DNA from: Candidatus Wolframiiraptor sinensis
GTDB lineage: Archaea > Thermoproteota > Nitrososphaeria_A > Caldarchaeales > Wolframiiraptoraceae
Reading direction: 5' to 3'
DNA: 64,000 nucleotides
Assembly: GCA_023268255.1 (NCBI GenBank)
Contig: JALNJX010000003.1
Span: forward strand, 124,001-188,000
The notes under the pieces were generated by a model, which was not told where the DNA came from, made no database searches, and saw only the letters and a list, made by a program, of their open reading frames with translations. Positions 7,425 through 37,181 of the stretch are shown here, piece by piece; the first letter of the stretch is position 1; the number at the start of each line of letters is the position of its first letter. The translations under genes were made by a program, and so were the position numbers.

Positions 7425-8234
7425 TTGCTGGACGAGTTCTCCTCAAAAATCTTAAGGACGGCGCTTGAGGTGGTTGAGGCGGCTCAGGATCGGGGAATAA
7501 TACTCAGAATCCTTGGAGCAGTGGCAACATATCTCCACTGTCGTGAAAACGAGCAGGTGATCCTCTTCATCAGGAGTGCCGGAAGGGTTGATGGAGGGTC
7601 AATGTTCACGGACGTGGACTTCATCTCCTACAGCAAGCAGCGGAAACAGATAGTGGATCTCATGAGGGAGTTGAGCTTCGATGAGGATAGGATGATAAAC
7701 ACGCTTTTCGGCCACAAGAGGATGATATTCTTCAGGGATGGCGTGAAGGTCGACATATTCTTCGATAAGCTCGAGTTCAGCCATGATGTGTTCTTTGGTA
7801 GCGAGCCCGGGAAAGGGAGGCTCGAGCTCGACTACCCGACCATAAGCCTGACGGACCTACTTCTCGAGAAGCTACAGATTCATCACATAAACAGGAAGGA
7901 TATAATCGACGTGATAGCAATCCTGATGACGCATGAGGTTGACGATTCCGCCGGGAAAGAGGTGATAGATGCGGGATACATAGGTCGCGTGTTGTCAGAT
8001 GACTGGGGCTTCTGGTATGATGCTCTAGAGAACCTGAGGAAGGTGGAGTGCTTTGTGAGCAAATTCGTGGATGAGGGATTGATTGGCCGCGATCAGTCCG
8101 AGAAGGTTCTCCAGAATATTGGGAGGCTCAGGATGGCGATCGAGGGCTCTGAGAAGACGAAAAACTGGGTTAAGCGCGCCAAGATAGGAGTATCCAAGCC
8201 TTGGTATAGGAACGTGGAGGATCTGAGCACTTAG
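7425..8234 (+). CDS. Predicted nucleotidyltransferase-like protein
   Basis: A 269-aa soluble protein. The centre holds FTDVDFISYS followed about 50 residues later by VKVDIFFDK, which looks like the two-part Asp signature of a Pol-beta-type nucleotidyltransferase fold (DxD, then a third Asp). The usual GS motif before the first Asp pair is represented only by GGSMFTDVD. The next segment (LTDLLLEKLQIHHINRKDIIDV) resembles the helical region of archaeal nucleotidyltransferase-like proteins. No tRNA-nucleotidyltransferase or toxin-antitoxin partner is adjacent. The start is TTG at 7425, about 36 bp after a TATA-like box. It converges with the PmbA/TldE-like gene, with only 11 bp between. The substrate is unknown. 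Confidence 0.7.
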   Translation: MLDEFSSKILRTALEVVEAAQDRGIILRILGAVATYLHCRENEQVILFIRSAGRVDGGSMFTDVDFISYSKQRKQIVDLMRELSFDEDRMINTLFGHKRMIFFRDGVKVDIFFDKLEFSHDVFFGSEPGKGRLELDYPTISLTDLLLEKLQIHHINRKDIIDVIAILMTHEVDDSAGKEVIDAGYIGRVLSDDWGFWYDALENLRKVECFVSKFVDEGLIGRDQSEKVLQNIGRLRMAIEGSEKTKNWVKRAKIGVSKPWYRNVEDLST

Positions 8235-8245
8235 CGGATCCTCTT

Positions 8246-9577
8246 TCACGATGTGGGCCGCGTGAAGTTCAGCTTATCTATCACGGCGTAGGGCGCGTAG
8301 ATTGGCGTATCAACCTCCCACCATAATATCCAGTAGCGCTCCTGGCTCAGCTCCCGTATATTCCTGAAGACTCTTATGATGTTGTCGCTTATCCTCAGCC
8401 CCTTGATCGCGCCCTCTATGCTCCCCCTCCGTATTCTAAGTAGCGCGTCCCTTGGGATCGTTGAGAAGTCGCCGGTCCGATAATTCTGGTATCGGAGATA
8501 CCAGTCATTCGTGACGAATACTCCGTCGTCTATGCTAGAGATGAGCTTTTCGAGACTTCCATCTCCACCCTCCACGATGAGGTTGAATGGGTGCGGGACT
8601 ATTAGCCCTGCATTCGCCGTCGTCTCCGCATTAAATTTCCTCGCGGTCATGGAGTTATGGAGGTAAGTTCTGAGGACTCCCTTATCGATTATCACGTTTC
8701 TCCTCGTCGGCAGCCCCTCATCATCGAACGGTCTCGCCCCCGGCGTCCCCTGGATCGTCGGATCATCAATTAACGTGAACTTCTTTGATGCAACGCTTTC
8801 ACCAATCTTATCAGCTAGGAATGATAGCCCTGAGTCGATGTGAAATGCGGAGTCATGTTCGCCGACTTCCTCGACGAGATTCGCGAATGTCATTGGCCCC
8901 AAGAGGGCCTCGTAGACGCCTGGCTCGGCATCCACAGGGTTCACAGCCATCGCCGCGAACTCGCCCGCCCTTCTCCCAGCTTCCTCGGGCTTAAAGTCCT
9001 CCTGCTTAGATGCTATCGAGACGAAGTGGCCGGTGGCATTATCGGCTGCGAGCGCCCGGATCGAGAGCTCGATCATGGAGCCTTCATAGCTTCCGCCGGC
9101 CTCGCCGCTCGTCAGAAGCCAGGTTTTCCCCCGCGTGTAGATGAGGCTTCCTGCAGCCATCTTGGCCCCCGCGGATAGAGCCGCGTTTATCGCGGCATTA
9201 ACATGATCTATTAGCGCATCGGGGTCTCCTGGGATCCTAGAACCCCTCAGCAGCTTATCATCGTATTTGAAGGGGCCTTTTGGGAGCGGTGCGTAGACAT
9301 CCGTCGGGGGCGTGAGCCTCGCCAGCTGGATCGCCTTCTCCACGGCTTCCTTCGCTCGTTGCGGGCTGAGCCCTTCGATCGAAGTTGCCGCTCTCCTTCC
9401 CTCTATCGCGATGAATATGTTAATATTGCTTATGTCTCGATTCTCGGCGGCCACCACAGCGTTGTTGGCGAACTTTATCATGCACTCTTGGCCGACATAA
9501 ACCTCCGCGACGGCATCCGTTGCGCCGCGTCTAAGAGCCTCCGATATCACGAGCTTGCAAATCTTCTCCGGCTTCAA
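8246..9577 (-). CDS. PmbA/TldE-like protein (TldD/TldE family)
   Basis: A 443-aa protein of the TldD/PmbA family, seen from the N-terminal alpha/beta domain (ISNINIFIAIEGRRAATS), the middle GVYEALLGPMTFANL, and the C-terminal LPTRRNVIIDKGVLRTYLHNS region. TldD subunits carry an HExxxH zinc protease motif; I find none here, so it corresponds to the non-catalytic TldE/PmbA subunit or a solo variant. In bacteria TldD-TldE degrades unfolded peptides and processes microcin B17. A TldD partner would be expected next to it but is not in this window. The start is TTG at 9577, about 30 bp after a CTTTATTTT box. Confidence 0.8.
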   Translation of the reverse strand: MKPEKICKLVISEALRRGATDAVAEVYVGQECMIKFANNAVVAAENRDISNINIFIAIEGRRAATSIEGLSPQRAKEAVEKAIQLARLTPPTDVYAPLPKGPFKYDDKLLRGSRIPGDPDALIDHVNAAINAALSAGAKMAAGSLIYTRGKTWLLTSGEAGGSYEGSMIELSIRALAADNATGHFVSIASKQEDFKPEEAGRRAGEFAAMAVNPVDAEPGVYEALLGPMTFANLVEEVGEHDSAFHIDSGLSFLADKIGESVASKKFTLIDDPTIQGTPGARPFDDEGLPTRRNVIIDKGVLRTYLHNSMTARKFNAETTANAGLIVPHPFNLIVEGGDGSLEKLISSIDDGVFVTNDWYLRYQNYRTGDFSTIPRDALLRIRRGSIEGAIKGLRISDNIIRVFRNIRELSQERYWILWWEVDTPIYAPYAVIDKLNFTRPTS

Positions 9578-21203: not shown

Positions 21204-21944
21204 ATGCAAATGCTTGGCGGAAGCGGTTCCGGAGAAGATCCATTCATTAATGAGGAAGCTAGAGAGGAGATTAGGCGCAATCTCGAGCAATCTCTCAATA
21301 AGCTCAATGCGCAGATTCTCAGGCTGGAGTCCAAGTATCGGGAGCTATTGTCGAGGAGCAAGGAGTACTTCGAGCAGGTCGTGGACGCCATGGAGTCCGG
21401 GGACGAGGAAAGAGCATCAATATACGCTGAGGAAATAGCGGAACTGAGGAGGCTCGCCAAGATGGTTAGGAGATCGCAGCTGATGCTGGAGCAGGTGAAG
21501 CTCAGGCTTGAGACGGTAGTCGAGGTAAGCGACCTCATAGGATTGGTCGTTCCACTGCTCTCGCTCATCGCGGAGGTGGAGGACGAGATCGTGGGAGTAG
21601 CCCCGGAGGCTGCCAAGAACCTCCATGAGCTCGCCTGCTATATCGAGGATTTCACGAGCTCGAATATAGCCAGCCCGGTGGAATTGGGCTCCCATGAGGT
21701 GAGCGAGGACGCGGAGAAGATTCTCGAGGAGGCTAGAAAGATCGCGGCGGAGCGCGTCGAGAAAGCCTTCCCGGATGCTCCGCAGCTCTCCGAGGTGGAA
21801 CAGCTGGTCTACTCCTATCTCTCGAAGGCGGGCTCCGAGATAAACCTGAGGAAGTGCGCGGAGGATCTCGGGATAGACGTTAAGCAGGTTAAGGAGATCT
21901 TGATGAAGCTGGAGGAGAAGGGGCTGATAGAGCTCGTGGACTAG
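21204..21944 (+). CDS. cdvB: CdvB, ESCRT-III-like division protein
   Basis: A 246-aa Snf7/ESCRT-III-like protein from ATG 21204. It is a charged coiled-coil protein for about 170 residues (REEIRRNLEQSLNKLNAQILRLE onward), with a short hydrophobic LIGLVVPLLSLI segment. A Pro-containing FPDAPQLSEV near residue 190 resembles the MIM2 motif that binds the MIT domain of CdvC. The last 50 residues (LVYSYLSKAGSEINLRKCAEDLGI...LMKLEEKGLIELVD) form the winged helix that in Sulfolobus CdvB contacts CdvA. CdvB polymers constrict the membrane in cell division. The gene converges on CdvC with a 4-bp overlap. Confidence 0.88.
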   Translation: MQMLGGSGSGEDPFINEEAREEIRRNLEQSLNKLNAQILRLESKYRELLSRSKEYFEQVVDAMESGDEERASIYAEEIAELRRLAKMVRRSQLMLEQVKLRLETVVEVSDLIGLVVPLLSLIAEVEDEIVGVAPEAAKNLHELACYIEDFTSSNIASPVELGSHEVSEDAEKILEEARKIAAERVEKAFPDAPQLSEVEQLVYSYLSKAGSEINLRKCAEDLGIDVKQVKEILMKLEEKGLIELVD

Positions 21945-23068
21945 ACTGCTCCAAATTTCTCGTACCACTCGAGCATCCTCTCTATGCTCTTCGGGTCGAC
22001 GCTCGGCTTCCTGCTTCTAATGACCTCCAAGAAGTCCTCCATCGTTATCTTTCTCAGCTCATCTCCTCCCTGCTCGAAGAACTCGCTGACGATTCTCGTC
22101 TGAACCTCCACGCATATTGAGTATATGTCGGCGGCAGAGTATCCCTCGGTTATCCTGGCGAGCTCCGCGAAGTCCACGTTATCGAGATTGAGCTTCCCCG
22201 CATAGTACTGGAATAGCTTGAGCCTCGCCTCGTAGTTCGGCAGCCCTATGTAGATCCTTTTCTGGAACCTCCTTATGAAGGGCTCATCGAGGAGCCAGGG
22301 CTTATTTGTCGCGGCCAAGATGTAGATCAGGCTCTTCCTCCCCTTATCCAGCAAGCCATCCATCTCTTTTATCAGCTGATTTCTCGCCCTCGCTTCTCCG
22401 CCGACCTCATTCAGCCTCATGGCTGCCAGAGAATCAACCTCGTCTATGAAGATTATAACGGGCTTCCCCGAGGACTCGTACTTCCTCGCGGCATTAAAGA
22501 TCTTCGCGATGTTTCTTTCGGATTCGCCGAGCCACTTAGACATTATCAGCGATGCATCCACGTGCATGAATACGGCGTCTATCTCGTTCGCGACCGCGGC
22601 GGCGATCATGGTCTTACCGCAGCCCGGCGGGCCGAATAACAGGATTCCCCGGGGCCACCCGAGCGGGAAGAGGTCAGGCCTCTTCATCGGGTAGATTATG
22701 CTCTCGAGAATCGCCTTCTTCGCCTGCTCCAAGCCTATCACGTCATCCCACTTTATGGGCGGCGGATTCTGGATTACGAAGCTATCATCGGCCTCGACCT
22801 GCTCATCGATCCTGCCGCCAACCGAGATCTTCTCGCTCAGCGCCTCCACCCTGCGCCTGTACTGTGCCTGCTTCTCCTCGTATATCCTCCTCATGACGGG
22901 ATCTTCTGTGAGCTCTATGAGCTTCTCTAGGAGGGCTATCACCTCACGATACCGCTTCGCGGCCTCCTCCCTCATCCCGATCTTATCGTATTTGACGGCA
23001 GCTCGAGCCTTCTCAGCCGCAAGCCTCTCAAGCTCCTTCATATCCTCGAGCCTCTTCCCGGGAAACAA
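21941..23068 (-). CDS. cdvC: CdvC, Vps4-like AAA ATPase with MIT domain
   Basis: A 375-aa protein. Residues 10-85 form a three-helix MIT domain (LERLAAEKARAAVKYDKIGM...). The AAA domain has Walker A GPPGCGKT near 147, Walker B IIFIDEVDSLA, and ATNKPWLLDEPFIRRF (sensor 1 and Arg finger region). It matches Vps4/CdvC, which disassembles ESCRT-III polymers during archaeal division. It converges on CdvB. The open frame begins at TTG 23068; ATG 23041, about 36 bp after a TTTTAT box, is an equally good start that loses nine residues. Confidence 0.93.
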   Translation of the reverse strand: MFPGKRLEDMKELERLAAEKARAAVKYDKIGMREEAAKRYREVIALLEKLIELTEDPVMRRIYEEKQAQYRRRVEALSEKISVGGRIDEQVEADDSFVIQNPPPIKWDDVIGLEQAKKAILESIIYPMKRPDLFPLGWPRGILLFGPPGCGKTMIAAAVANEIDAVFMHVDASLIMSKWLGESERNIAKIFNAARKYESSGKPVIIFIDEVDSLAAMRLNEVGGEARARNQLIKEMDGLLDKGRKSLIYILAATNKPWLLDEPFIRRFQKRIYIGLPNYEARLKLFQYYAGKLNLDNVDFAELARITEGYSAADIYSICVEVQTRIVSEFFEQGGDELRKITMEDFLEVIRSRKPSVDPKSIERMLEWYEKFGAV

Positions 23069-30479: not shown

Positions 30480-31967
30480 CTAGGGATATGCCAGCCACTC
30501 TCTTAAGAGGTGGGGTAAGTCGCTTGCATCCACTCTGATCTGATGCGCTGAGTCCCTGAACCTTACCGTGACGCTTCCATCCTCGATAGTCTGATGATCG
30601 ATGGTTATGCATATTGGGACGCCTATCTCATCGTATCTCATGTACCTTCTTCCGATGCTCCCCGAGTCATCGTATTCCACGTCGAAATCTCTTTTCAGCT
30701 CATCGTATATTTCCAGGGCCCTGCTGGTTAGTGGCTCCTTGGATACGAGCGGCAGGATGGCGGCGTCTATCGGCGCGAGGTAAGGCGGCAGCCTGAGCAC
30801 CGTTTTCCCGTCCTCGAGACTGAGGAAGTTCTCGAGGATGCAGTATAGGCTCCTATCAACGCCCATCGAGAGCTCGAATACATGAGGCAGAACCTTCTGG
30901 CCGTCATCGAGCACCTCCATCTCGTGGCCGCTCATCCTCTGATGGCCCCCGAGATCGTGGTCTCCCCTATTATTGCATGCGACGAGCTCTATCCACCCGA
31001 GGCTTGTCTCAACCTCCAGATCCCAGGCCTCGACGGCGTAGAACGCCTTTTCATCCTCGCCGAGTTGCCTCAGCCTAATCCTCTCCCTCGGGATCCCCGC
31101 CTTCTCGTAGAACTGCTGGATCAGGGCGAGGTAGTAGGCGACGAGCTTGCTTGAGACTAGCCCCCGGCCTAGGGCCTCTCTGCACGTGATCTCGGTCGGC
31201 TCGCTTTCACCGACCTGCTGAAGCCTCAGCTCATAATCCATCACAGCGTCAGCCTTCGGCAAATCATTGGCCCTATTCGGGTTGAAGAAAACCTCTATCT
31301 CGGCCTGATAGAACTCCCTCATCCTGAGAAGACCCTGCCTCGGCGAGATCTCGTTCCTGAAACTCTTCCCATACTGCGCTATCGCGAATGGAAGCTTCCT
31401 CCTCATCGTCTTGTATATCCTGAGAAAGTCCACAAAGATGTTCTGGCAAGTCTCCGGCCTAAGGTACGCGTCCGCTTCCGCGACGCCGACGCCAACCCTG
31501 AACATCATGTTGAAGTGGGAGTAGCTCGTCAGCTCACCTCCGCATCGCGTGCACCTCACCCCGTTCTCCTCAACCATTCTCCTCATCTCATCTAAGTTCA
31601 ATCTCTCTGGGACGTGCAGCCCGGTCCTCTCCTCTATCAGCTTATCAACGCGATATATTGCCCCGCATCTGCCACATCGCGCTATGGGGTCGACGAAGCT
31701 GTCTAGGTGCCCGGAGGCCTTGAAGACGCTCTTGGACAGGATTTGCGCTCCATCGATCTCGAGCATTCCATCTCTTCTCACCAGCTCCCTCCTCCACAGC
31801 TCTATGAACTTTCTCTTCATCGCGGCGCCGAGAGGCCCATAATCCCAGAAGCCTGCGGGAGCATCACCATAGATCTCCGATGATGATGAGAAGAATCCCC
31901 TCTCGAGGGCCAGCTTAATCAATTCCTCGAATTTCCTGCTCACACCTTTGTCCTGCTTCAGCTGCAT
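30480..31967 (-). CDS. glyS: Glycyl-tRNA synthetase (alpha2 type)
   Basis: A 495-aa class II synthetase of the dimeric archaeal/eukaryotic kind. N-terminal SSEIYGDAPAGFWDYGPLGAAMKRKF is the class II motif 1 region of GlyRS. A zinc-binding insertion with CGRCGAIY and CTRCGGEL follows. Motif 2 is FRNEISPRQGLLRMREFYQAEIEVF; motif 3 is FELSMGVDRSLYCILE with the ATP-binding Arg. The anticodon-binding domain is at the C-terminus. It charges tRNA-Gly. It has its own promoter region and precedes the PhoU-like gene on the same strand. Confidence 0.96.
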   Translation of the reverse strand: MQLKQDKGVSRKFEELIKLALERGFFSSSSEIYGDAPAGFWDYGPLGAAMKRKFIELWRRELVRRDGMLEIDGAQILSKSVFKASGHLDSFVDPIARCGRCGAIYRVDKLIEERTGLHVPERLNLDEMRRMVEENGVRCTRCGGELTSYSHFNMMFRVGVGVAEADAYLRPETCQNIFVDFLRIYKTMRRKLPFAIAQYGKSFRNEISPRQGLLRMREFYQAEIEVFFNPNRANDLPKADAVMDYELRLQQVGESEPTEITCREALGRGLVSSKLVAYYLALIQQFYEKAGIPRERIRLRQLGEDEKAFYAVEAWDLEVETSLGWIELVACNNRGDHDLGGHQRMSGHEMEVLDDGQKVLPHVFELSMGVDRSLYCILENFLSLEDGKTVLRLPPYLAPIDAAILPLVSKEPLTSRALEIYDELKRDFDVEYDDSGSIGRRYMRYDEIGVPICITIDHQTIEDGSVTVRFRDSAHQIRVDASDLPHLLREWLAYP

Positions 31968-32022: not shown

Positions 32023-32715
32023 CTAGCTCTCCATGACGATGGCCTTACAGCTGGGGCATATCCCGTTAACGCTCACCCAAGATTCTATGCATCCCCTGTG
32101 AAATAACGCGTCACAGTTGCTGCATCTCACGGCTTCGCCCTCCGATATGAAGTCGAAGCATATGCTACATATTGCTTCCTCGACGTCAGATGCTGGGACG
32201 AGTTTTGTAGTCGCTGGCCTAGGTGGGCTCGGAGCGGCCATGCCGGCTTCAAGGAACTCCGGCGCGGCTGGCGGCACAGCGGTGAATGCCGTTGAAATGA
32301 CCTCCTCCCTTATTGGCGTGAGTATTGCGAGAGCTCCTATGGCCAGCAAGATCACACCCGTGAAGACGGCCGCGAAGAACCCTAGGTCGAACCTCGAGTA
32401 GCTCGAGAGCTCGAGAAGCCAGAACCAATATGAGTATATTGGCGATATCGTCGCGAGGATGCCGCCTAAGATTATCGAGACCCCCAGGACGTTCTTCATG
32501 CTCCTGAGCCCCTTAATGAAGTGGATGAGGATCACGCCCACGCCCGCCAGTGCTCCGCCGATGAGAGACATCATCGTCCCGTATGGGCTCACGAGACCCT
32601 GAACATATTTCTCGGTGCCATCAATCACCTGAACATACCAGCTCAGTAGAAGTGTAAGAACATGAATCGCCCCCATAGCAGCTGCACCCGACCCGATCTT
32701 ATACAGCCTAGACAT
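32023..32715 (-). CDS. Membrane protein with C-terminal C4HC3 RING-like domain (candidate E3)
   Basis: A 230-aa protein. The start is ATG 32715, which follows a strong GGGAGGAGGT; a longer in-frame ATG 36 codons upstream overlaps the TATA-like box and is unlikely. Four hydrophobic segments span about residues 8-30, 45-70, 76-104 and 112-132. After a Pro/Ala-rich linker, the last 48 residues hold eight zinc ligands: CSIC, 11 residues, CSNC, 4, H, 2, C, 10, CPSC. This C4HC3 order and spacing is almost identical to the small RING protein of the ubiquitin-like operon, which lies about 1.4 kb away, including the conserved Trp three residues after the sixth ligand. A membrane-bound ubiquitin ligase is a good hypothesis, not shown. 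Confidence 0.8.
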   Translation of the reverse strand: MSRLYKIGSGAAAMGAIHVLTLLLSWYVQVIDGTEKYVQGLVSPYGTMMSLIGGALAGVGVILIHFIKGLRSMKNVLGVSIILGGILATISPIYSYWFWLLELSSYSRFDLGFFAAVFTGVILLAIGALAILTPIREEVISTAFTAVPPAAPEFLEAGMAAPSPPRPATTKLVPASDVEEAICSICFDFISEGEAVRCSNCDALFHRGCIESWVSVNGICPSCKAIVMES

Positions 32716-32725
32716 TACCTCCTCC
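32716..32725 (-). promoter_or_regulatory. Strong ribosome-binding site of the membrane RING-like gene
   Basis: On the minus strand GGGAGGAGGT lies a few bases before ATG 32715. It decides the start of this gene. A TTTATAAAG box near 32770-32780 is the probable TATA element. Confidence 0.55.
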
Positions 32726-32870
32726 CTAGTTGTGAGCAAGTTCGCACAGCGCCCCCCAGAAGTTCGGTTCTCCCACTTTATAAACGACTCGTAACATGGC
32801 ATGCAACCGGAAGCTATGGCCAAGCGCGGATCAACTTTTTATAACGCTTTGAGGGAATCCTGCCTAGAAA

Positions 32871-33710
32871 ATGGCACCATTTGGCGGAAAGAAGGTCGAG
32901 GAGCTGGAGGATAAAATAGAGGAGAGGCTGAGCCGACTTGAGCGAGAGTTCTCCGCGAGGATAACGCCCCTCAGTGATGCGTTGAAAAAAATAGAGTCTA
33001 GTCTCGCTGAGATCCGGGCGCTTTTAGGGGCGATATCATCACAGCCAGAGAGCATAAGGTCTAGGCTCGCGGTGTTCCTCGAGAGGGCGGAAAAGGTCTC
33101 CGAGGAGCTCGCCCAAGTCAGGCTTTACGAGAGCACGCTTCTCTCGATTCAGGAGGGCTTGAAGGATATCATTGATGCTTTGAGCAAGGAGCGCGAGGCA
33201 ATAAAGAGGGAGGTTGAGGCGTTGTTGAAAGAGAAGAGCGATCTCGCCACTATAAGGCAGGAGCTGAGGAAGTGGGGAAATGAGCTCGACGCTAAGGAGA
33301 AGGAGCTCGCGCTCAGGGAGGCTGAGCTGAGGCAATTCGAGGAGAAGAAGCTCGAGCTTGAGCGCAGGATTTCGGAGCTGGAAAATAACTACCTGAAGAG
33401 TCTAGAGGAGGCAAGAGATAGGCTCGAGAACATGTTCAAGGGCCTTCTCAGGGACTTCAAGATAAGGGAGATACGGATGGAGAGGCTCATAAGAAAAGAG
33501 GCTGAGCTGAGGCAGGAGTTATCCAAGCTCAAGGAGAAGGAGGAGTCGGCAGAGGAGCTCGAGAGGCGAGTTCTCCAGCTGAGAAGCGAGCTTAACATGC
33601 TTGAGGAGCGGAAGAAGAGGCTCGAAGCAGAGATAAAGGAGCTCGAGAATAAGCGGATAAGCCTCGAGAGGCTGATCGCCGAAATGAGGCGCGCGGTCGT
33701 CAGCCCCTAA
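32871..33710 (+). CDS. Long coiled-coil protein
   Basis: A 279-aa highly charged protein almost entirely of Glu/Lys/Arg/Leu heptads (VEELEDKIEERLSRLE..., ELRKWGNELDAKEKELALRE, LRSELNMLEERKKRLEAEI). It looks like an SMC- or myosin-rod-like coiled coil without ATPase domains. It diverges from the membrane RING-like gene (TATA-like region between) and converges with an 11-bp overlap on a second coiled-coil gene. No family is recognisable because low complexity hides homology. A structural or scaffold role near the ubiquitin-like module is only a guess. Confidence 0.75.
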   Translation: MAPFGGKKVEELEDKIEERLSRLEREFSARITPLSDALKKIESSLAEIRALLGAISSQPESIRSRLAVFLERAEKVSEELAQVRLYESTLLSIQEGLKDIIDALSKEREAIKREVEALLKEKSDLATIRQELRKWGNELDAKEKELALREAELRQFEEKKLELERRISELENNYLKSLEEARDRLENMFKGLLRDFKIREIRMERLIRKEAELRQELSKLKEKEESAEELERRVLQLRSELNMLEERKKRLEAEIKELENKRISLERLIAEMRRAVVSP

Positions 33711-34050
33711 TACTCTCCTCGAGCCTCTGAACCCTCTCCGCCAGATCATTAACCACGTCGGTCAGCGTCGTCAGCTTGTCGTTCAGATCCTCCAGCTCCA
33801 ACTCCAGCCTTTTTTCCAAGCTTCTTAAGCCCTCCTCGACGCCCTCCAACCTGGCCTTTAGGTCGTTTAGCTCTGACACGTTAGCCGGCGCCAAGTTTCT
33901 TATCTTCTCCTCAAGCTCCGCAACGGCCTCATCTAGGACCTCGAGGGCTTTCGCCAACCCCTTGACGAAATCATATGTGGGGATCTTGCCCTTGGGGGTC
34001 TCCAAATACTTCGGCTCCAAGACTATGCCGCCCTTTTCAGCCCTACTCAA
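33700..34050 (-). CDS. Small coiled-coil protein downstream of the ubiquitin-like operon
   Basis: A 116-aa protein. An N-terminal segment with a YDFVKGLAKALEVLDEAV helix precedes a heptad-rich C-terminal coiled coil (LKARLEGVEEGLRSLEKRLELELEDLNDKLTTL). It lies 21 bp after the stop of the RING gene on the same strand and so may be the last gene of the ubiquitin-like operon. The Tyr/Phe-rich N-terminal part (EPKYLETPKGKIPTYDF) is less repetitive and could bind a partner. Function unknown. Confidence 0.7.
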   Translation of the reverse strand: MSRAEKGGIVLEPKYLETPKGKIPTYDFVKGLAKALEVLDEAVAELEEKIRNLAPANVSELNDLKARLEGVEEGLRSLEKRLELELEDLNDKLTTLTDVVNDLAERVQRLEESIRG

Positions 34051-34071: not shown

Positions 34072-34305
34072 TCAGGCCTTCTGTAATAAAGGTCTTTTGC
34101 ATATCGGACATGTTCCCCGCTCATCTATCCAGGGCTGAACGCATCTAGCATGCATCTTATTTCCGCAGAAGGGGCACTCAAAGACGAGAACCCCTTCATA
34201 TATCTCCGCGGAGCAGACCGGGCATATATCCGGTTTCTTCTCCTCCTCGAACTCTAGATCCCATTCACCCGCCTTCTTCTCCTCTGCTAATATTATCCTC
34301 TTCAA
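34072..34305 (-). CDS. Small RING-like zinc protein, E3 of the ubiquitin-like operon
   Basis: A 77-aa protein. The N-terminal 28 residues are charged. The rest is a zinc module: CPVC, 12 residues, CPFC, 4, H, 2, C, 10, CPIC, i.e. eight ligands in C4HC3 order. Its start overlaps the E1 stop by 4 bp, so it is cotranslated with E1. In Caldiarchaeum subterraneum the equivalent small RING protein stimulates ubiquitin-like conjugation in vitro, which is the precedent for calling it an E3. The ligand order is closer to RING-CH/PHD-type than to classical RING-H2, which is worth noting. Confidence 0.9.
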   Translation of the reverse strand: MKRIILAEEKKAGEWDLEFEEEKKPDICPVCSAEIYEGVLVFECPFCGNKMHARCVQPWIDERGTCPICKRPLLQKA

Positions 34306-35489
34306 GGCCCATCACCTTCGGAGATCCGAACCCTTAACTGTAGTGGCATGAACCTTCTGCTGGTGGTGATATATAATGTATCGCCCTCACCGATTCCCAG
34401 CTCTGAGATCCTCTTATCATCTGAGAGCCTCCACTCCCGGTATAGTACTTCGGGATCTGGAATGCTGAACATCTCGGCTATCTTCTTCTTAAGCTCTAGA
34501 ATTGTCTCGCTGGGCTTGACGGTGATCGTCAGCCCTTCCTCGACGATGTCCCCGCAGACGAAGCAGTCCGGGCTTCTCTCCAGCTCGGCGATCGTGAACT
34601 GCCCCGAAAGCCCGTCATACACTAGGAGCCCCTTTATGGGCTCTCCGAGCTTATCTCCATGGAGTATCTTGGCTATCTCCGTCGATGCCAATCCGGAGAT
34701 CATGGCGGCGACGCTTTGAAGCGCTGGGAGCTTCGGCCTTAGCTTCTCCCTAATCTCCCTAACAATCTTCAAGGTCTTATCATCGAGTCTCATCAGCACG
34801 CTTTCCTGAGCATACTTCAGATCGTATACTGTCTTGATATCGTGCTCGAAGAGCTTCTCGGCGACCTTCAAGCTTATCTCTATTCCAGCCTGCTTCAGGT
34901 CTTGAACTAGGTCTTCGGGCTTTCTCCTTCTCAGCGTGCACTCGGCGAGCTGCATCTCCTTAGGCATGAGCTCCTCTCCATGGCACTCCAGGCAAGCGGT
35001 CTTCTTCGGAATAACGATCTGGAGGTTGGCGTAAAACCCCTCCATCGCGACGTCCACGAGCGGTTTATTCAACGCGACCGCCAGCGAGTTGAGCCACCTC
35101 CTGACAGGCCAATTATCGAGGCAGGATACCAGGACGTCTGCCTCCTCGAAGATCGACTCATCAAGGTTTCTAACATCATCGAAGATCGGCTCAACTTTCA
35201 CGAGGGGATTCATTTTCCTCAACCTATCGGCGGCAACTATGGCTTTAGGCTCGCCTAAGTTATCATCCAAGAAGAGCATTTGCCTGCTCAAATTCGATAG
35301 CTCGACCACATCATTATCGACTAGAACTAGCTTGCCGATGCCCATTAATGCAAGGTTTTTTGCTACCTCGCATCCGGTTGCTCCAACGCCAACGACCACG
35401 ATCTTAGCCCTAGTAAGATTCTCCTGATCCCAGCCCTCAATCCTGACCTGGCGATCATATCGCTCGAGATCTCTCCGTTCCTCGGTCAT
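34302..35489 (-). CDS. E1-like ubiquitin-activating enzyme
   Basis: A 395-aa single-chain E1-like enzyme. The adenylation domain starts with YDRQVRIEGWDQENL; the ATP loop is GVGATG (34-39); LVDNDVVELSNLSRQ (57-70) carries the Asp and Arg of the family. CxxC at 166-169 and at 309-312 make a zinc site. The likely catalytic Cys is Cys184 (LAECTL), followed by a helical insertion to about 250. Residues about 315-380 (LTITVKPSETILELKKKI...) form a ubiquitin-fold domain like the E2-recruiting UFD of eukaryotic E1. MoeB/ThiF lack that domain, so this is a eukaryote-type E1. A CTCATATAAG box 32 bp upstream suggests its own promoter. It overlaps the RING gene. Confidence 0.94.
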   Translation of the reverse strand: MTEERRDLERYDRQVRIEGWDQENLTRAKIVVVGVGATGCEVAKNLALMGIGKLVLVDNDVVELSNLSRQMLFLDDNLGEPKAIVAADRLRKMNPLVKVEPIFDDVRNLDESIFEEADVLVSCLDNWPVRRWLNSLAVALNKPLVDVAMEGFYANLQIVIPKKTACLECHGEELMPKEMQLAECTLRRRKPEDLVQDLKQAGIEISLKVAEKLFEHDIKTVYDLKYAQESVLMRLDDKTLKIVREIREKLRPKLPALQSVAAMISGLASTEIAKILHGDKLGEPIKGLLVYDGLSGQFTIAELERSPDCFVCGDIVEEGLTITVKPSETILELKKKIAEMFSIPDPEVLYREWRLSDDKRISELGIGEGDTLYITTSRRFMPLQLRVRISEGDGP

Positions 35490-35558: not shown

Positions 35559-36038
35559 CTAATCCTGAAAGGCGTACTCCGGCCTAGCATACAGCTCGAT
35601 GTATCTTCTGACTCTCGCCTCGAAAATATCCGGCCTATACTTCATCTCAGCGGCGGCGAACGTGTTTAAAGGATCATCGGGATTCGGGTTATTGAGTAGG
35701 TTCCTTAAAGCCTCTATGACGGAGAAGAGGTGGAGCGAGGGACTCCAGTCATTCTTGAAGATCGACTCGCAGATTCTCGCGGGAACCTCATCCGTGAAGT
35801 TCGGATGCCAAATCCTCGTCCACCAGATGACGTCGGGAGGCGTGTAGGGGAATGCTCGGGGAACGAGCACCTCGACCTTGAAGAATCCGCCCTCATAGAG
35901 ACCCTCGCCAATGATCACTCCTCGGTAGTGCGTCAGCTGATTATCCACTATGTCGAAGGTAGGCTCATTCTCTCGCATCAACTTGTATTCTAGCGCAAGC
36001 CTCCTACTCCACAGAGCCTCGGGAAGCTGCGTTTTCAA
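35559..36038 (-). CDS. E2-like ubiquitin-conjugating enzyme
   Basis: A 159-aa UBC-fold protein. The core matches eukaryotic E2s: an N-terminal helix (RRLALEYKLM), GVIIGEGLYEGGFFKVEVLVPRAFPYTPPDV (beta sheet and the PxxPP turn), HPN at 78-80, the catalytic Cys90 in ARICESI, and WSPSLHLFSVIEALRNLLNNPNPDDPLN. The HPN Asn and the WSP motif that support catalysis are intact. It would take activated Ubl from E1 and pass it to substrates with a RING partner. It starts with TTG 36038, about 36 bp after a CGTTAAAACT box. It lies between Ubl and E1 on the same strand. Confidence 0.94.
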   Translation of the reverse strand: MKTQLPEALWSRRLALEYKLMRENEPTFDIVDNQLTHYRGVIIGEGLYEGGFFKVEVLVPRAFPYTPPDVIWWTRIWHPNFTDEVPARICESIFKNDWSPSLHLFSVIEALRNLLNNPNPDDPLNTFAAAEMKYRPDIFEARVRRYIELYARPEYAFQD

Positions 36039-36108: not shown

Positions 36109-36345
36109 TTATCCTCCGACAGTTCTAGTTATCAGTATGAGCTTATCTCCATCCTGCGCTCCTATTGACTCGAGCGTCTCCGTGTCCTTAAGCGCCCTAC
36201 CCCTGTAGGTGAGCCTTGTTGTATCTGGTGGAAGCTTCTTCATGGCGCAAACCTTAGCCCTGATAGCTCCGATTGTCGTGGAGGGTGAGACATCAAGCTC
36301 GATGGGATTACCCCCTCCCACGGCGGGAATAATCCTAATCTTCAT
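36109..36345 (-). CDS. Ubiquitin-like modifier ending exactly in Gly-Gly
   Basis: A 78-aa beta-grasp protein from ATG 36345, which follows a GGAG ribosome-binding site; the longer frame to 36384 runs into the TATA box. It aligns with ubiquitin over its length: TIGAIRAKV for TIENVKAKI, LPPDTTRLTYRGRAL for IPPDQQRLIFAGKQL, and a C-terminal TRTVGG. The last codons before TAA are Gly-Gly, so no tail has to be removed. Relative to ubiquitin, K48 is Arg50, K63 is Asp65, K27 is Arg29, and K29 is kept as Lys31; Arg72 is kept as Arg74. It is the first gene of the Ubl-E2-E1-RING series and diverges from the JAMM protease. Confidence 0.95.
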   Translation of the reverse strand: MKIRIIPAVGGGNPIELDVSPSTTIGAIRAKVCAMKKLPPDTTRLTYRGRALKDTETLESIGAQDGDKLILITRTVGG

Positions 36346-36387
36346 ATCTCCTTCAAACCTCCTGCCTGAGAATAGGGCGACCACACG

Positions 36388-36396: not shown

Positions 36397-36457
36397 TATG
36401 TTGTGCAGGAATCCTCTAAGAAAGTATTTCTCGAGAGTTTTTCAGTAAGATTTGGGT

Positions 36458-36474
36458 GAGGGGCGCCACCCCTC
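36458..36474. promoter_or_regulatory. GAGGGG/CCCCTC inverted repeat between Ubl and JAMM genes
   Basis: Six-base arms GAGGGG (36458-36463) and CCCCTC (36469-36474) flank CGCCA, midway between the two divergent TATA boxes. It could be an operator or a hairpin; no evidence distinguishes them. Confidence 0.35.
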
Positions 36475-36495
36475 CCCGAGCTAATAGCATAAGAA

Positions 36496-36505
36496 TGTTT
36501 AAGAT
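36496..36505 (+). promoter_or_regulatory. TATA box of the JAMM protease gene
   Basis: TGTTTAAGAT centred 31 bp before ATG 36531. It supports that ATG rather than the upstream GTG 36456 as the start. Confidence 0.5.
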
Positions 36506-36530
36506 TTTCTTGAACGGTGTTTTCTCCTGC

Positions 36531-37181
36531 ATGAGGGTTAGGATATATCCGCTGGCGCTGGGAAAGATGCTGAAGCACGCCTTAGACGACTTGAATAGGG
36601 AGGTCGCGGGCCTTCTCGTTGGAAAGTACCTGAAGAAGGGAGATGTGCTCGAGATATGGGATGCCATTACGGGCGAGCAGAAATCGACGCCGGGCTTCGT
36701 CTATCTGGAGGAGGAGACTATAGGCGCGGCGGCGGAGTGGGTTCTCAGGAATAGGCCCGGCTTATACATCGTCGGGTGGTATCACTCGCATCCGGGCTTC
36801 GACGTATTCCTCTCAGCGATAGACATTGAGACCCAGAAGCTGTATCAGAGGCTCTTCCCGAAGGCGGTGGCGCTGGTGCTGGATCCGGTCAAGTACGCGA
36901 AGACGAGGAGGCTTCAGGATCTCAATTTCAAGGTCTTCAGGATAAGCCAGAAGAACGAGGTAATCATGGTCCCCGTCTCGATAGGAATTCAGAGGCAGAA
37001 GCTTCTAGAGAGCACTCTAAGGGGAATCGAGACCATGGAGCTGAAGTATATCGGCGGAGGGACGAGCAGGGAGCCGCCGGAGTATGTTGAGGCAGATCTA
37101 GATATCCCAGCAGATAAGCTTACAGGCCCATTAAGTAATCTTCTCAAGAAGATCAGGGATAAGGTTGGCTCCCGCACTTAG
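36531..37181 (+). CDS. Rpn11-like JAMM deubiquitinase
   Basis: A 216-aa MPN+/JAMM metalloprotease from ATG 36531 (upstream in-frame starts at 36456 and 36495 precede or overlap the TATA box). Glu24 in NREVAGLLVG is the general base; the zinc site is H85-S-H87-P-G with Ser95 and Asp98 (YHSHPGFDVFLSAID). It resembles Rpn11, the proteasome-lid deubiquitinase. In C. subterraneum the homologue removes the C-terminal tail of the Ubl precursor and cleaves conjugates. Here the Ubl has no tail, so deconjugation would be its main job. It is transcribed away from the Ubl operon. The C-terminal 80 residues are helical and charged. Confidence 0.93.
   Translation: MRVRIYPLALGKMLKHALDDLNREVAGLLVGKYLKKGDVLEIWDAITGEQKSTPGFVYLEEETIGAAAEWVLRNRPGLYIVGWYHSHPGFDVFLSAIDIETQKLYQRLFPKAVALVLDPVKYAKTRRLQDLNFKVFRISQKNEVIMVPVSIGIQRQKLLESTLRGIETMELKYIGGGTSREPPEYVEADLDIPADKLTGPLSNLLKKIRDKVGSRT

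Follow-up and report, generated by a model that had tools for sequence, protein, structure and literature searches.

Gene and domain architecture of mRING

The analysed stretch, called the window below, comprises 64,000 nt of the Candidatus Wolframiiraptor sinensis genome (positions 124,001 to 188,000 of contig JALNJX010000003.1) and contains, close to the operon of a ubiquitin-like system, the gene of a candidate membrane-anchored RING ubiquitin ligase (E3), here named mRING. The open reading frame originally predicted at 32023–32715, with the strand unstated, is real and is read from the minus strand, 32715 to 32023, as an ATG frame of 230 amino acids. The start is most likely a TTG codon at 32739, about eight codons 5' of the ATG at 32715, as the N-terminal pattern [LMV]xV(T)xEEvxxRfyKiG, upstream of this ATG, is conserved in relatives. 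The gene delineated by translation and by this N-terminus spans 32023..32739 (minus strand, stop codon at 32023–32025) and encodes 238 amino acids; residue numbers are counted from the TTG start.

The C-terminal zinc module of mRING is a RING domain (32047..32169, minus strand), identified by the Pfam match and the alignment, with ligands C191, C194, C206, C209, H214, C217, C228, and C231. It matches the Pfam zf-RING_2 profile with E=4.9e-9 and 36.7 bits, passing the cut-off of 27.3, and the same profile is matched by 38/38 mRING relatives at E<=0.001. Among PDB structures, the Arkadia RING comes closest in sequence (E=7e-10). In the AlphaFold model the domain has a predicted local distance difference test score (pLDDT) of about 85–89, and Foldseek ranks the RNF165 RING, from the UBE2D2:RNF165:Ub complex, first. 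The comparison of the zinc domain with E2-bound RINGs, suggested in the original prediction, shows that the model matches these structures and not zinc ribbons. The claimed similarity to the small RING protein of the operon, srfp, also holds: both modules are RINGs of the same kind, share the Trp, and have the described spacing, CxxC-11-CxxC-4-HxxC-10-CPxC in mRING, with 12 instead of 11 in srfp. Across all six reading frames, the window has this C4HC3 pattern twice, in mRING and srfp alone; neither residue-shuffled open reading frames of the window nor 200,000 shuffled versions of mRING yielded it.

All eight ligands are invariant in the 38-row alignment of relatives. Their order is C4HC3 and not the C3H2C3 of RING-H2 domains, CxxC replacing CxH in 38/38 sequences. 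Apart from the ligands, just three RING positions reach 90% conservation or more in the 38 sequences: P229 (38/38), I193 (Ile in 37, Leu in 1), and W221 (Trp in 35, Tyr in 3). We take these, from general knowledge of RING–E2 complexes, to be the main E2-contact positions. The linchpin position after the eighth ligand, found by the alignment within the same interval of the minus strand, is Lys in the window copy (K232), and Lys or Arg throughout family f1 and in genus g10 of family f4. A similar ligand shift, with an extra Cys, is seen in srfp of C. subterraneum, which is impaired by I30Q or W58A, the equivalents of the mRING Ile and Trp, both residues being needed for full activity (PMC5654768).

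The C4HC3 order and the CxxC-x4-HxxC spacing are also those of PHD fingers, and a weak PHD match was obtained; hence one could suppose that mRING is no ligase but a membrane protein bearing a PHD-like or zinc-ribbon module, either a reader or a structural one. However, the PHD profile remains under its cut-off (16.7 of 24 bits), whereas zf-RING_2 passes; the Trp of mRING stands at the RING position, four residues past the sixth ligand, with none two residues before the seventh, where PHD fingers have theirs; and the conserved residues are the E2-contact set. We reject both PHD and zinc ribbon on the profile score and the Trp position, and regard such a module as highly improbable.

As originally predicted, the RING is joined to four transmembrane (TM) helices, on which the hydropathy profile of 38 sequences and AlphaFold agree. 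On the minus strand, these are the N-terminal helix with TM1 (residues 5–32, 32644..32727; AlphaFold2, hydropathy, and alignment) and, by hydropathy and AlphaFold2, TM2 (residues 52–72, 32524..32586), TM3 (residues 78–109, 32413..32508), and TM4 (residues 119–140, 32320..32385). An extracellular beta-hairpin is placed by AlphaFold2 between TM1 and TM2 (residues 36–45, 32605..32634), with low confidence (pLDDT about 55). A Pro/Ala-rich flexible linker (residues 143–185, 32185..32313) leads to the RING; its pLDDT is below 50 over residues 146–172, and it evolves fast, with the highest ratio of nonsynonymous to synonymous substitution rates (dN/dS). The invariant residues of the membrane domain in the alignment are R11 and H26 within the N-terminal helix and TM1, W34 just past this segment, as well as L30, G48, S58, G66, S99, and G120.

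The loop charges in the 38 sequences follow the positive-inside pattern, as the loop after TM2 (loop2, TM2–TM3) has a mean net charge of +2.45, and loop1, of –2.08. Because of this pattern, both termini of mRING and its RING should be cytosolic. Purifying selection constrains the membrane domain about as strongly as the RING (dN/dS of 0.06–0.11 in this comparison, with about 0.05–0.11 across the TM and RING segments), and is relaxed in the linker (about 0.2). All full-length copies from the class-wide search are open frames, and the single flagged TAA (genome G030) is a profile match overrunning the frame end; mRING as a conserved family is well supported.

Modelled alone, the membrane domain yields a predicted template modelling score (pTM) of 0.74 and a pLDDT of 77, and most of its best Foldseek matches in PDB are claudins, TARPs, MP20, and GARLH4. 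The claudin-type matches have probability of about 1 and query TM-scores mostly of 0.5–0.6, but E-values of 0.03–0.17, and the hairpin has a pLDDT of only about 55. A sequence search of PDB and Pfam gave no PDB match and no Pfam family common to the members, only scattered chance-level ones. The model tentatively gives mRING the four-helix bundle of the claudin/TARP/MP20 superfamily, with a beta-hairpin following TM1; unlike claudins, mRING has no W-GLW-C-C signature, no cysteines in the first loop, no sequence similarity found, and a much shorter extracellular segment. Hence the domain models as a claudin/TARP-like tetraspan in the sense of fold resemblance, not membership.

Genomic neighbourhood and distribution

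The gene for GlyRS (30480–31967, minus strand) lies closely downstream of mRING. On the other side, mRING is separated from the ubiquitin operon by two coiled-coil genes, in agreement with the original description: CC1 (32871..33710, plus strand), divergent from mRING and conserved in the cluster, and CC2 (33700..34050, minus strand), conserved beside srfp. Then follow, all on the minus strand, srfp (34072..34305; zf-RING_2, E=1.2e-8), the C. subterraneum counterpart of which has been tested as an E3 (Hennell James et al., 2017; PMC5654768), an E1-like protein with a C-terminal ubiquitin-like domain (34302..35489; ThiF, 1.8e-60; ubiquitin, 1e-7), an E2 with conserved RING-binding loops (35559..36038; UQ_con, 7.1e-29), and a ubiquitin-like modifier (Ubl) with a Gly-Gly end (36109..36384; ubiquitin, 1.7e-13). 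An Rpn11/JAMM deubiquitinase gene is transcribed divergently (36456..37181, plus strand; JAB, 3.1e-18).

The window Ubl ends at Gly-Gly without a C-terminal extension, unlike the C. subterraneum precursor; therefore JAMM processing may not be needed in this organism. CC1 and CC2 match no known family above the cut-off (the best is COG6_N for CC1, 27.1 of 27.4 bits); they travel with srfp across the class and may be partners of the RING proteins. About 9 kb from mRING, at 21941–23068 (minus strand), lies the gene of a Vps4/CdvC-like AAA ATPase that carries MIT and Vps4_C domains, a proximity that is suggestive only.

The order Ubl-E2-E1-srfp-CC2-CC1-mRING-GlyRS is kept in families f1, f3, and f4 wherever contigs show it. 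Whenever mRING and srfp are present on one contig stretch, in whichever family, they are codirectional and about 1.1–1.7 kb apart. In family f2, Ubl-E2-E1 have moved away, and srfp-CC2-CC1-mRING still stay together, except for genus g9, where mRING and srfp are unlinked. GlyRS nearly always follows mRING downstream, also in genomes with a relocated ubiquitin operon.

We considered 44 genomes of the class (Caldarchaeales/Aigarchaeota) and 354 others sampled from the phylum. Full-length mRING is present in 41/44 class genomes and in 0/354 others, where matches span only the zinc finger or a part of the protein. The named relatives are Caldarchaeales/Aigarchaeota metagenome-assembled genomes, e.g., Wolframiiraptor, Benthortus, and Geocrenenecus (11 named loci). 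A canonical E2 was found in all class genomes but G042 (57% complete, divergent E2 only), and divergent E2-like matches, in six genomes outside the class. As to zf-RING_2, 35/44 genomes have two matches and no more, namely srfp and mRING. Thus distributed, mRING and the canonical E2 share the same range, one clade, which bears out the suggested co-occurrence with the ubiquitin operon; the opposite pattern, the same protein in archaea devoid of Ubl, E2, and E1, was not seen, as no full-length mRING was found outside the E2-bearing class in the 354 sampled genomes.

The three class genomes without mRING are G001, G002, and G037, the latter two being fragmented assemblies. In G001, where srfp is retained, contig ends (L061:1-719 and L102:1-154) carry unrelated DNA where mRING is expected, and GlyRS is 92% identical.

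The same data bear on the possibility that mRING, formerly an E3 partner, now has a ubiquitin-independent membrane role, e.g., as an accessory subunit of a transporter, with the RING kept structurally. Such a role would agree with the constraint on the membrane domain, about equal to that on the RING, and its invariant Arg, His, Trp, Gly, and Ser, with the persistence of mRING beside GlyRS where the operon has moved, and with the loss of the linchpin in several lineages. Yet it implies no need to keep the E2-contact residues, and no copy was found outside the E2-bearing class among the genomes sampled, so that we consider it improbable.

The two RING proteins in family f2

In family f2, the Trp of srfp has been lost in 10/10 sequences, and Ala or Ser stands at its Ile position in 9/10, whereas mRING keeps both Ile and Trp in 12/12. 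The E2 of this family retains Pro-Phe/Tyr in L4 and, in all but one genome, Pro in L7, the L7 neighbours having changed to a WYPN-like sequence. If the RING–E2 contact is still needed in f2, mRING would be the RING able to supply it, and the degenerate srfp leads to the prediction that ligase activity there depends on mRING, not srfp. The f2 srfp (e.g., L032:8315-8560 and L033:9605-9889) are still conserved, with zinc ligands intact; being conserved without the E2-contact Trp and, usually, the Ile, srfp may have become a non-E2-binding partner.

As no E1, E2, or Ubl is encoded beside the f2 RING cluster, loss of ubiquitin was considered for this family and rejected, since E2 is present in 41/41 relatives searched, being located elsewhere in the f2 genomes. 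Genus g9 of this family has, moreover, a second, divergent ubiquitin-type system (L077:7232-8050 and 7914-8531; also G040:C29 and G043:C28), in which one protein combines a ubiquitin-like part at its N-terminus with an E2 domain at its C-terminus, and its gene overlaps a JAMM gene; a RING-like match is found approximately 2.5–3 kb away.

The linchpin in f2 is Gly in mRING and Arg or Lys in srfp, and this complementarity leaves room for a two-RING complex. In such a heterodimer, comparable to RING1B/Bmi1 and BRCA1/BARD1, mRING would tether the soluble RING to the membrane, one of them docking E2 and the other supporting it. Most genomes indeed have exactly two RINGs, with genes kept close; the f2 key residues are complementary as a whole, Ile and Trp without a cationic linchpin in mRING and a cationic linchpin without Trp in srfp; and in every genome where both RINGs are readable, Ile or Val is retained together with Trp in one RING or in both. 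Still, in f1 mostly both RINGs carry the full set and could act alone, G001 has srfp and lacks mRING, the two genes are unlinked in g9, and srfp of C. subterraneum is active alone in vitro (PMC5654768). We hold a pairing of this kind to be rather unlikely.

Proposed function and relation to known ligases

We consider it likely that the Caldarchaeales ubiquitin system includes mRING as an E3 of the integral-membrane RING type, acting as follows. The claudin/TARP-like four-helix domain would span the cytoplasmic membrane, its two ends facing the cell interior, and the flexible linker of about 40 residues would carry the RING in the cytosol and give it reach. The RING is predicted to dock the single canonical E2 of the lineage, charged with the operon ubiquitin, via Ile193, Trp221, and Pro229, and mRING would stimulate ubiquitin transfer to lysines of membrane or membrane-proximal proteins. 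The helical domain would probably pick substrates by lateral binding, and the marked proteins might next undergo extraction and degradation or have their ubiquitin removed by the Rpn11-like JAMM protein; both these steps are speculative. The C. subterraneum counterpart of the latter is a tested deubiquitinase (PMC6043591, PMC5654768). The ligase function of mRING is moderately supported. Most likely, this hot-spring archaeon has in mRING an E3 tethered to the membrane that acts on membrane or membrane-proximal proteins, an enzyme type best known from complex cells.

Several observations weigh against this assignment. The linchpin is non-cationic in a number of lineages (Gly throughout f2 and in genus g8 of f4, Asn in f3, Gln in genus g11 of f4), and in g8 mRING has Tyr replacing Trp. 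A non-Arg linchpin is not disqualifying, as Doa10, a membrane E3, has His there (PMC12326332). The Foldseek matches are weak (E about 0.01–0.1), and the structure models were fed by only 12 close sequences. Since mRING adjoins GlyRS, and the oppositely oriented CC1 separates it from the ubiquitin operon, their co-regulation is not a given. The co-distribution, being that of one clade, fits functional linkage but cannot be separated from shared descent. Finally, G001, a close relative with 95% completeness, apparently lacks mRING, synteny breaking at window positions 32778 and 32015; the gene has apparently been cleanly lost or replaced almost exactly at its boundaries, and therefore is not essential there.

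Among known proteins, the closest match of mRING in sequence and structure is to eukaryotic RING-H2 E3s of the zf-RING_2 family (Arkadia/RNF165, RNF38), with which it has in common the Ile, Trp, Pro, and, in f1 and genus g10 of f4, a cationic linchpin, and from which it differs in CxxC instead of CxH at ligands 3/4 and in the flanking domains. Hrd1, Doa10, and MARCH are work-alikes, polytopic membrane proteins that expose a RING to the cytosol, and Doa10 has no Arg linchpin, much as f2 mRING has no cationic one; still, their membrane folds are different, MARCH and Doa10 have RINGv, and mRING does not belong with any of them. The originally proposed likeness to MARCH was not borne out. RINGv, with CxC at ligands 3/4 and a different spacing, yields no match to mRING up to E=1 and none in its relatives at E<=0.001, and the domain order is opposite, the RING of MARCH being N-terminal and that of mRING C-terminal, after four helices that model as claudin/TARP-like; kinship with MARCH is rejected.

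The C. subterraneum srfp shares with mRING a C4HC3-type RING, CxxC at ligands 3/4, the E2-contact hydrophobic residue and Trp, and the neighbourhood (PMC5654768); it is small and soluble, whereas mRING combines four TM helices with a linker and sits outside the operon proper. Fuchs et al. (2018; PMC6043591) noted a “second E3 protein” next to the C. subterraneum operon; in the article text they call both RING proteins small and describe no membrane part, E2 surface, or distribution for the second one. This protein is probably the mRING counterpart, because the relatives hold only two RINGs, both usually in this cluster. In a 2014 survey (PMC4327156), aigarchaeal genomes are listed with RINGs of the C3H2C3 type, and RINGv is reported from a marine euryarchaeote only. 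In the articles proper of these three studies (PMC5654768, PMC6043591, PMC4327156), no membrane domain on an archaeal RING is described, and the only archaeal RING ligase reported as tested is a small soluble one. The expected novelty of a membrane-bound archaeal ligase stands, within these texts, for the membrane part, and not for the presence of a second E3 beside the operon, which had been mentioned in 2018.

A broader picture may tentatively be drawn, although we would give it less than an even chance: a two-RING Caldarchaeales ubiquitin system, one E3 of which is built into the membrane on a claudin-like tetraspan, with the membrane RING having replaced the soluble one in E2 docking in one family, would amount to an archaeal pathway of membrane-protein ubiquitylation with Hrd1/Doa10-like logic in a non-Asgard lineage. 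In eukaryotes, membrane-protein ubiquitylation underlies endoplasmic reticulum-associated degradation and receptor turnover. If the picture is true, a membrane E3 sharing the operon E2 would suggest that ubiquitylation at the membrane arose before or outside eukaryotes, and a minimal system of one E1, one canonical E2, two RINGs, and one deubiquitinase would split soluble and membrane substrates between two ligases.
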